Source of the DNA: Thermococcus sp.
Lineage (GTDB): Archaea > Methanobacteriota_B > Thermococci > Thermococcales > Thermococcaceae
Direction: 5' to 3'
NCBI RefSeq assembly: GCF_017656495.1
Contig: NZ_JACDNS010000006.1
Coordinates: forward strand, 62,001 to 126,000
Length of the DNA: 64,000 bases
In this document: one piece after another, positions 15,598 through 19,365 of the stretch
Layout of the letters: every line of letters begins with the position of its first letter
Numbering within the stretch: the first letter of the stretch is position 1
The notes under the pieces: model-generated
Seen by the model: the letters and a program-made list of their open reading frames with translations, nothing else
What the model was told of the DNA's origin: nothing
Database searches by the model: none
Made by a program: the position numbers and the translations under genes

Positions 15598-16545
15598 TCA
15601 AACCTTAATGCCACCCATAACCAAGGCCAGAGCTGCCTTTTGAGCATGTAATCTGTTCTCTGCCTGATCCCAAACAACGCTGTTTGGTGAGTCAATTACG
15701 TCATCTGTAACCTCTTCGCCCCTATGGGCGGGGAGGCAGTGCATAAAGATGTAGTCAGGCTTTGCGTGCTTGACTAACTCCTTGTTGACTTGGAATGGCT
15801 TGAATATCTTCCTTCTCATCTCAGCCTCAGCTTCTTGCCCCATTGAAGCCCAGACATCGGTATAAATTACATCAGCATCTTTTACGGCCTTAATTGGATC
15901 ATGTAGGAGCTCAAAGCTTCCACCACTTTCTGCTGCGTTCTTCTCAGCCCACTTGATAACTTTCTCATCTGCTTCATATCCTTCTGGTGTGGCAACAACC
16001 ACGTTGGCACCAAGCTTTGTTCCAGCTATCATGAGAGAATGGCAGACATTGTTTCCATCTCCAACGTAAACGACCTTAATTCCCTGTATTTTTCCCTTCT
16101 TTTCCCAGATTGTCATATAGTCTGCTAAAGCTTGGCACGGATGTGAAAAGTCACTCAAACCATTAATCACAGGAACAGTTGCGTACTTTGCTAAGTCTTC
16201 AACATCTTTGTGGGCATAAACCCTTGCCATAATTCCATCAACGTATCGGCTCAATACACGGGCAGTATCTGCTATCGTTTCTCCCCTTCTCAGTTGGAGA
16301 TCTTGAGCGTTCAAATAGAGGGCGTAACCTCCGAGCTGATACATTCCAACTTCGAAACTAATTCTTGTTCTTGTTGAGGGCTTTTGGAATATCATAGCTA
16401 AAGTTTTACCCTCAAGAACTCTGTGGGGTTTTCCTATCTTATTCCAAATCTTCATCATCTTTGCTGTTTCGAGAATTGTCTCGATTTCTTCTCTTGTAAA
16501 GTCCTGTAAGCAGAGAATATCTCTTCCAGCTAAGCTAACTACCAT
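15598..16545 (-). CDS. argF: Ornithine carbamoyltransferase
   Basis: Catalyses carbamoyl phosphate plus ornithine to citrulline in arginine metabolism. The carbamoyl-phosphate loop is KPSTRTRISFE; further sites are SHPCQALAD and MHCLPAHRGEEV. The mature length of 315 residues matches the well-studied Pyrococcus furiosus enzyme, to which the sequence is very close. I set the start at ATG 16545 (MVVSLAGRDIL), which is 5 nt from GGTGA; in-frame TTG, GTG and ATG codons a few residues upstream are weaker. No other arginine genes are next to it. Confidence 0.97.
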   Translation of the reverse strand: MVVSLAGRDILCLQDFTREEIETILETAKMMKIWNKIGKPHRVLEGKTLAMIFQKPSTRTRISFEVGMYQLGGYALYLNAQDLQLRRGETIADTARVLSRYVDGIMARVYAHKDVEDLAKYATVPVINGLSDFSHPCQALADYMTIWEKKGKIQGIKVVYVGDGNNVCHSLMIAGTKLGANVVVATPEGYEADEKVIKWAEKNAAESGGSFELLHDPIKAVKDADVIYTDVWASMGQEAEAEMRRKIFKPFQVNKELVKHAKPDYIFMHCLPAHRGEEVTDDVIDSPNSVVWDQAENRLHAQKAALALVMGGIKV

Positions 16546-16702
16546 TGGCATCACCAAAAATTGGTTATTTTATGAGTTAATAATAGTTTCGTCAGAGAAT
16601 GCACAGATGAGCTGTAAGATTTCCGAAATGCCTTACAAATAGGTTTGCAAACTTAAAACTTCAAAGAAAAATAATTATAGTGGTCAAAAGAAATACAAAA
16701 AC

Positions 16703-17176
16703 ATGAGGCATTACGAAGAACTAGCCCTTAAATTTATGTCTCTCTTGGCACTAACCTTTGGGATGTATGTAGTTTTTAAACCCATTGAAAGCTTGCTAAT
16801 TCTCCCAATTGCAAGAATTTCAACAATGGCACTTCAACTTATAGGTTACAGTGTTTACTCATCCAAATCTGTTATTATAGTAGAGGGTATTGCAAAAATT
16901 GAAATTATTGGTGCTTGCACTCCTGTTTTACCCTTTTTACTCCTTGTCTCTTATGTTGCGATTTTTGGGAAAAAAAGCAAGTATAATGCTATTTTTCTTT
17001 TGTTTGGGTTTATATTTCTGTTTATAGTTGATGTAGCTAGAATAATGTTGATGGTAGTCCTAACCTTTTATGGGTTTGAATTAGAAAAATCTCATCAGCT
17101 TTCTAGCTATCTATTAATTCCCGCATCCTATTTGTTTATCCTTTGGATTTACAATAAATTTTTTGTTTCAAAGTAA
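16703..17176 (+). CDS. Archaeosortase/exosortase-like membrane protease
   Basis: A 157-residue protein with about five or six membrane spans. It has the three spaced residues of the exosortase/archaeosortase family, all near membrane boundaries: Cys72 in GACTP, Arg113 in DVARI and His131 in KSHQL. The C-to-R distance of 41 residues is the spacing I recall for haloarchaeal ArtA. Family members cut a C-terminal membrane anchor and move the protein to a lipid or other carrier. This one is short, close to the bare core. The next gene, 101 nt downstream on the same strand, encodes a secreted protein ending in a sortase-type tail, so this is likely a dedicated enzyme-substrate pair. Confidence 0.75.
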   Translation: MRHYEELALKFMSLLALTFGMYVVFKPIESLLILPIARISTMALQLIGYSVYSSKSVIIVEGIAKIEIIGACTPVLPFLLLVSYVAIFGKKSKYNAIFLLFGFIFLFIVDVARIMLMVVLTFYGFELEKSHQLSSYLLIPASYLFILWIYNKFFVSK

Positions 17177-17233
17177 GAAATTTTGTAAATTTACTCAAAT
17201 TTCATTAGAGAATGCTCACATTTTAGCAGAAAT

Positions 17234-17243
17234 CAATAAATAG
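17234..17243 (+). promoter_or_regulatory. Possible TATA box of the repeat-protein gene
   Basis: CAATAAATAG lies about 40 nt before the start of the secreted repeat protein, so that gene may have its own promoter besides read-through from the archaeosortase gene. Confidence 0.35.
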
Positions 17244-17277
17244 CATTGACAACTAATCCCCAATAGTGGTGGGAAAG

Positions 17278-18546
17278 ATGAGAGGAATTAAAAAAGTTAT
17301 ATTACTCATTATCGTCATGTTAATGACACCTATTGTTAGTGCGGAGACTTATTTGGATATTTTAACGAATATCCATCCTAGTTCGACATCTGGCACTATT
17401 GTATGGTCTCATTATTTACCGGCAAATTGCTCTAAATTGGACAAGCTGGTTCTCACAATTGAGGCCTACGATGTTGATTATGATAATAACATTCCTGTTT
17501 ACCTAAATGATGTGTTCATCGGGTACTTGGAAGGTGGACATAATAATGAATGGGCAAATACAACTTTTATTATTACAGATGAAACCACATTAGAACAGAT
17601 ATTCAATGCTTCAAACTTTGCCATTGTTGTAAAGGTTCAAGGAAAAAGTGGTGACTGGGTAGGAGTTGATGAGTCGATTCTCTACATTGAATATACCGCA
17701 GGAACCCCTGAAGGGGAAAGATACGAGGATACCCAAGAGAATATCCAAGAAAATAGTACTCCTAGCCCTATAGTTTGGACTCATAAGCTTCCTGAGAATT
17801 ATACAAAAATACTTCGTTTTGCATTAATTATTCAGGCTTATGACGTTGACTATGACAACCATGTAGAAGTATATGTAAATGATGTATTCATCGGGTATTT
17901 AAACGGCAATGCCAACAATCAATGGACAACTACAATACTTACGGTCTCTGATGAAAATTTGATCAACCAGATTATTAACAATACTAATGTCTTAGTTGTT
18001 AAAGTTACACCTCATTCAGATGATTGGGTTGCCATCAACTCTTCAAGACTTTTAGTTGACTACATTGCTGGAGAAAATGATGTTAGATCATATGAGGATA
18101 CTCAGGAAGATGTTAGTGATGAAACAACATGGCAGGAGATAACCTGGACCCACACACTCCCTTCAAACTATTCAGAAATCATTAGAATGACTTTCATCAT
18201 TGAGGCCTATGATGTTGATAAGAAGAATTACATCCCAGTTTATGCTAATGATGTGTTTATAGGATACCTGGAAGGTGGTTATAACAACAAATGGTCAACA
18301 ACAGTAATATCAATAAGAGACAGGGGAACCATATCGCAAATATTGGAAAAGGATCCCCATACAATTACAATGAGAGTAGTTCCAGACCGTAGTGATTGGG
18401 TTAAAATTGGAGATGCCAAGCTAATTGTGGATTATCGCACATTGACTAGCGAGGAGGAATCGAGGACAAGTGCTCCAATCCCGTTACCTGTGTATCTGAT
18501 GCTTTTAGCTGTGATACTCTATTATATTCACCAAAGAAAAGAATAA
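17278..18546 (+). CDS. Secreted three-repeat protein with archaeosortase-type C-terminal signal
   Basis: A 422-residue exported protein. I chose ATG 17278, after GGTGG, giving a signal peptide (MRGIKK, a hydrophobic core, then cleavage near VSA-ET). The body is three tandem repeats of about 125 residues. Each has a W-x-H-x-LP strand, EAYDVD or QAYDVD, a NDVFIGYL segment, a W-x-T/N-T strand, a DWV turn and an IEY/VDY end; repeats 2 and 3 open with YEDTQE. Many N-x-S/T sequons suggest glycosylation. The C-terminus is APIPLPV, a hydrophobic stretch of ~12 residues, then HQRKE: a motif, membrane span and basic tail as in archaeosortase targets. It is probably anchored at the cell surface. Ligand unknown. 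Confidence 0.8.
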   Translation: MRGIKKVILLIIVMLMTPIVSAETYLDILTNIHPSSTSGTIVWSHYLPANCSKLDKLVLTIEAYDVDYDNNIPVYLNDVFIGYLEGGHNNEWANTTFIITDETTLEQIFNASNFAIVVKVQGKSGDWVGVDESILYIEYTAGTPEGERYEDTQENIQENSTPSPIVWTHKLPENYTKILRFALIIQAYDVDYDNHVEVYVNDVFIGYLNGNANNQWTTTILTVSDENLINQIINNTNVLVVKVTPHSDDWVAINSSRLLVDYIAGENDVRSYEDTQEDVSDETTWQEITWTHTLPSNYSEIIRMTFIIEAYDVDKKNYIPVYANDVFIGYLEGGYNNKWSTTVISIRDRGTISQILEKDPHTITMRVVPDRSDWVKIGDAKLIVDYRTLTSEEESRTSAPIPLPVYLMLLAVILYYIHQRKE

Positions 18547-18630
18547 GTTTCTTTTTACTTCTTTTGTTTTTCGGAATTTTGAATCAAAAACCTAATAAGC
18601 TCTTATTTTCCTTACTTGATGGGGGTTCTA

Positions 18631-19365
18631 ATGGATAGAATAAAGGTTAGGCTTATCAACTATACTCCGAGGCCTTTAGAAACAGTAACATGGGCTGCAT
18701 TGATTTCTTATTGGGACAAGTGGGAAAGTGAAGCCTTTGAAAGAACAACAAAATCTGATGTGGAGAAACATCTACCAAAAGTTCTCTCATATGGGCATGA
18801 AAGCATCTTAGAACATGCGGTTTTCACATTTGCAATTGAGGGTTGCTCTCGTGTATGCTCACATCAGCTTGTTCGTCACAGAATAGCAAGTTATACACAA
18901 CAATCACATAGATATATAAAATTAAATCCTCAAGATATTGAAGAGACATTTCTAATCCCAGAGAGCATCAAAGAGAAGCCTAAGCTCTACGAGAAGTGGA
19001 AAAAGCTCATGAAAGATGCAATAGAGCTGTATAAGGAAACTTGTGGAGATGACATTCATCAAGAGGATGCCCGCTATATTCTTCCTCAAGCTGTTAGAAC
19101 AAAAATTGTTGTAACCATGAATCTGAGGGAGCTTAAGCACTTTTTTGGACTTAGAACCTGTGAGAGAGCACAGTGGGAAATCAGGGAAGTTGCATGGAAA
19201 ATGCTGAATGAGATAGCAAAAGTTGAGGAGTTACGGCCAATAGTTCAATGGGCAAAACTTGGTCCAAGATGCATTCAGCTTGGCTATTGTCCGGAGAAGG
19301 ATCTTATGCCAAAAGGCTGCTTTAAAAGGACAAGAGAAAAGTGGAGTAAAATTGCTGAAATTTAA
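18631..19365 (+). CDS. thyX: Flavin-dependent thymidylate synthase
   Basis: Makes dTMP from dUMP using methylene-tetrahydrofolate-type carbon and FAD/NADPH. The signature RHR-x7-S motif is present as RHRIASYTQQS, preceded by HESILEHAVFTF and followed by DARYILPQ and NLRELKHFFGLR. About 244 residues. I chose ATG 18631 (MDRIKVRLIN), spaced from GGGGGT; TTG 18616 and ATG 18619 are also in frame. The last 4 nt overlap the convergent HIT gene. Confidence 0.96.
   Translation: MDRIKVRLINYTPRPLETVTWAALISYWDKWESEAFERTTKSDVEKHLPKVLSYGHESILEHAVFTFAIEGCSRVCSHQLVRHRIASYTQQSHRYIKLNPQDIEETFLIPESIKEKPKLYEKWKKLMKDAIELYKETCGDDIHQEDARYILPQAVRTKIVVTMNLRELKHFFGLRTCERAQWEIREVAWKMLNEIAKVEELRPIVQWAKLGPRCIQLGYCPEKDLMPKGCFKRTREKWSKIAEI

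Follow-up and report, generated by a model that had tools for sequence, protein, structure and literature searches.

Do the two plus-strand genes that lie between argF and thyX in the analyzed window, which is the whole stretch of 64,000 nucleotides of Thermococcus sp. DNA (genome G000), encode a sorting enzyme together with its own substrate, and to which family would such a pair belong? The first gene (16703-17176) encodes a membrane protein of 157 aa and the second (ORF 17266-18546) a secreted protein of 426 aa; a sequence-only reading of this DNA had described both the membrane protein, with Cys72, Arg113 and His131, and the ORF of the repeat protein, and their positions and residues were confirmed. 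The cassette is flanked on one side by argF (15598-16557, minus strand), for which PDB 1pvv, an ornithine carbamoyltransferase, is a close match (651 bits), and on the opposite side by thyX (18616-19365, plus strand). Since argF and thyX are only ~170-175 bases apart in four congeners, representing the site without the cassette, the enzyme and substrate genes are, judging from these spacings, an insertion in an otherwise empty argF-thyX site. The substrate ORF opens at GTG 17266, and a Shine-Dalgarno-like GGTGG (17268-17272, plus strand, by direct reading) was found five bases ahead of the in-frame ATG at 17278, the latter being the more probable start.

The membrane protein scored over the curated cut-off of PF09721 (34.3 vs. 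25.7 bits, E = 2.1e-8). Its score against the TIGR04178 signature was just under the cut-off (21.1 vs. 23), which the congener orthologue surpassed (26.6), and none of the named NCBIfam subfamilies was reached (ArtE, 41.7 bits for a cut-off of 95; ArtD, 28.8 for 125; XrtX, 42.5 for 170). The orthologue, from genome G004, is intact and 51-53% identical to the window enzyme, with an NG86 dN/dS of ~0.12 between G000 and G004 at a dS near saturation. Because of the PF09721 E-value, the intact congener orthologue and the low dN/dS, the window enzyme is considered, on sequence grounds, a member of the exosortase/archaeosortase family well beyond chance. Its AlphaFold model (pLDDT 90) consisted of long helices and its sequence was hydrophobic, as in a polytopic membrane protein; a fold search with this model returned nothing meaningful, and no PDB sequence matched the enzyme profile.

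Relatives of the enzyme were rare, the clade being represented by six genes in only 5 of the 94 Thermococcaceae genomes, and direct scans of genome contigs with the enzyme or a four-sequence alignment as query found no relatives. In the tree, the six Thermococcaceae enzymes formed a single clade (support 99/99) in the ArtD/ArtE neighborhood, apart from ArtF and from the long-type archaeosortases. Cys72, the presumed nucleophile within an ACTP motif (16916-16918), and the presumed catalytic His131 (17093-17095) were invariant in the six relatives, and Arg113 (17039-17041), also presumed catalytic, was kept in five of them and replaced by Lys in the sixth. The proposed membership in the exosortase/archaeosortase family was thus borne out by the PF09721 score and by these residues. 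The enzyme with Lys (L066:5911-6360 in G102, minus strand) adjoins two intact genes with APIP-type tails. The ArtF enzymes of Thermococcaceae (TIGR04293) are likewise short archaeosortases of the same archaeal family, but they form a separate clade and their neighbors lack an APIP tail, ending in VPEFPF. At the Thermococcaceae ArtF loci (L047-L055), the adjoining secreted proteins end in VPEFPFL..., a possible ArtF target with no basic end. In G024, a long archaeosortase (L058:6053-11497; ArtC 49.8 bits, below cut-off) adjoins two secreted proteins ending in VPFFSSLAVG...FRR, a possible further enzyme/signal pair.

The second protein was confirmed by its sequence to have the architecture previously described: a signal peptide (MRGIKKVILLIIVMLMTPIVSA, 17278-17343, by inspection), three repeats (17344-17703, 17716-18075 and 18085-18450) and a tripartite tail (18466-18543). 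Over ~120 aa, identity to repeat 2 was 49% for repeat 1 and 46% for repeat 3, and repeat 3 was ~77-78% identical in G004. Repeat 2, the copy that was modeled, gave a confident beta jelly roll (pLDDT 92.8), and repeats 1 and 3 were assigned to the same type of domain by alignment to it. The best structural matches were BcsB, CBM35 and CBM36; the likeness to CBM35/CBM6/CBM36 and BcsB jelly-roll domains is one of fold (E 1e-4 to 1e-3, TM ~0.5-0.66), with only 6-20% sequence identity, and sugar binding by the repeats would be a reasonable guess from the model. No Pfam family reached its cut-off for the repeat protein, in agreement with the suggestion that the repeat family may be undescribed; Peptidase_M26_N and BetaGal_ABD2, weak Pfam matches below cut-off, were rejected as names. 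Among the 396 genomes searched, the repeat domain was limited to G000, G004 and a single further, clear occurrence in G216 (E 6.4e-7). As for the many sequons that had been noted, eight are present, only a mild excess over the 4.5 expected from composition.

The tail of the window substrate, TSAPIPLPVYLMLLAVILYYIHQRKE, has the form SAPIPLP-TM-QRKE, in which TSAPIPLP is followed by a hydrophobic span and HQRKE; this combination of motif, hydrophobic span and basic end, in a protein that also has a signal peptide, is what generally characterizes CTERM signals. All six enzyme loci adjoin one to three secreted proteins with a tail of the A-P-[IVL]-P type: one in G000, two in G004, three in G036, two in G092, and two at one locus and one at the other in G102. 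Two of these tails depart from the type (ASLP in G036 and APLS at the second G102 locus). The tail is common to unrelated protein bodies: besides the jelly-roll repeats, it occurs on a small NAxEIKVYN family and on two further bodies. A profile built from the eleven Thermococcaceae tails at enzyme loci scored 30.9-44.3 bits at those eleven sites, which are its training data (44.1 bits for the window tail), and at most 19.2 bits elsewhere in the 94 genomes, where the best matches were not C-terminal. When the G000 and G004 tails were removed from the profile, the window tail still ranked top, at a modest 10.8 bits (E ~0.1), and in the leave-out test the APLS tail of G102, a poor fit, was not recovered. 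No CTERM model of NCBIfam release 20.0 matched the tail found here. In the window genome, the profile search found no APIP-type tail beyond that of the neighboring substrate, which agrees with the earlier proposal of a dedicated neighbor.

An orthologous enzyme and repeat-protein pair was found in only one other genome, G004. The expectation that the two genes would be adjacent elsewhere held there in part: the pair is present, but the signal peptide and two of the repeats are gone from the repeat gene, which keeps the tail and lies beside an intact enzyme. The same locus carries a second, unrelated APIPLP-tailed gene (L016:5317-5876, minus strand), divergent from the archaeosortase, frameshifted before the tail and with no counterpart in the window. 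Both G004 substrates thus look broken and the enzyme intact, so that the enzyme may have other targets there, or none. Because the repeat gene has decayed and the second substrate is frameshifted next to an intact enzyme, the cassette may be in turnover, as far as these sequences indicate. None of the outcomes named beforehand as contrary to the proposed pairing (no match to a family model, residues not conserved, tail missing beside the enzyme) was observed.

The tail was also found together with ArtE. Genomes with ArtE were defined by TIGR04124 (cut-off 95 bits), which no genome of the phylum reached and which 15 genomes exceeded; these are probably methanogens, since Methanocaldococcus jannaschii was the only control genome over the cut-off. 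With the profile trained on Thermococcaceae and a threshold of 17 bits, C-terminal APIP-type tails were found in 8 of the 15 ArtE-bearing archaea, the other seven having no tail at that threshold, compared with none of 80 ArtE-negative archaeal genomes, in which the best match (16.8 bits) proved internal on inspection. This co-occurrence gave a Fisher p of ~5e-8, in which independence is overstated, as the genomes with ArtE belong to two families. In G216, the one short archaeosortase detected is ArtE and four APIP-type C-termini are present; in one of these, the repeat domain and a subsequent KAPIPLG share a single reading frame, and the signal peptide lies in a neighboring frame, apparently owing to a frameshift in the draft assembly. 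G268 likewise has APIP tails alongside a single detected short archaeosortase, ArtE. Several other tailed bodies in ArtE genomes resemble the small Thermococcaceae substrates, and a small substrate family is apparently common to both groups. ArtE therefore resembles the window system in its short enzyme, and in the APIP tail on proteins of its genomes, and it includes the nearest archaeal relatives by profile (66 bits for the G216 ArtE). The window enzyme differs in its score (41.7 bits vs. the cut-off of 95), in its separate clade (99/99) and in its adjacent substrate, whereas no tailed neighbor was present at the ArtE loci examined.

Across unrelated bodies, and among the genomes searched, the tail was found only where the window clade or ArtE is present. 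The locus is very probably an ArtE-type archaeosortase cassette with a dedicated neighboring substrate, whose tail would be cleaved and the protein probably anchored to lipid. Within this reading, the pairing of enzyme and substrate appears well supported by genomics, and the chemistry of cleavage and anchoring is deduced by analogy. The repeat protein would be exported by Sec and parked in the membrane by its hydrophobic tail; Cys72, with Arg113 and His131, would then attack at the APIP motif or just beside it, removing the hydrophobic span and the basic residues. In Haloferax volcanii, ArtA cleaves a tail composed of a motif, a span and basic residues, and a lipid is attached to the new C-terminus (PMC7157517). 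By analogy only, the new C-terminus of the window protein would be passed to a membrane lipid, and three sugar-binding-like jelly-roll domains would be displayed on the cell surface. The ArtA/PGF-CTERM system belongs to the same family and follows the same tripartite-tail logic as the window pair, but its motif differs and it has many substrates per genome.

An alternative in which cleavage of the tail ends in release of the protein, or in its attachment to a non-lipid partner, with the enzyme working as a simple protease or as an unknown kind of transpeptidase, would fit the fact that, in the literature searched, a product is described only for ArtA; it is considered unlikely, given that the Haloferax precedent within the family couples cleavage to lipid attachment. 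More doubtful still is a reading of the tail as a normal, permanent C-terminal membrane anchor, with the adjoining enzyme acting on other targets: a hydrophobic tail with basic residues of any kind can anchor a protein, and the G004 enzyme is intact beside its decaying repeat gene, but a plain anchor needs no motif, whereas A-P-[IVL]-P is confined to loci and genomes that have this type of enzyme and recurs on an unrelated body at the G004 locus. The ArtD/PIP-CTERM label suggested by the sequence-only reading was rejected as scarcely credible, despite P-I-P in the tail, a short enzyme with an adjacent substrate and the proximity of ArtD in the tree, since ArtD (TIGR04175) gave 28.8 bits against a cut-off of 125 and PIP_CTERM (TIGR04173) matched no APIP tail (none for the window tail at E up to 10), both models recognized the control pair of G286 (ArtD, 200.7 bits; adjoining PIP_CTERM tail, 24 bits, for a whole-protein cut-off of 30), and the APIP tails of G216 and G268 occur with ArtE as the single detected short archaeosortase. 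The substrate of that bona fide G286 pair (L156:3430-7149) has PKD domains and the tail SIPIPPPIEIIIF.

Taking the ArtE-type cassette as the preferred reading, it appears rather more probable than otherwise that APIP-CTERM serves the entire ArtE lineage as its sorting signal, unassigned until now, and that the Thermococcaceae cassette is gained and lost, with the body of the substrate swapped and the tail and enzyme kept constant. In NCBIfam release 20.0 and the searchable literature, ArtE has no named target signal, and NCBIfam names ArtE and ArtF merely 'archaeosortase family proteins'. A likely target signal is thus offered for ArtE, and the searchable tail, together with a one-enzyme, one-substrate cassette in one archaeon of the Thermococcaceae, opens the question of the ArtE target to direct testing. 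The cassette further suggests an exchange of surface proteins as a unit with their own anchoring enzyme.
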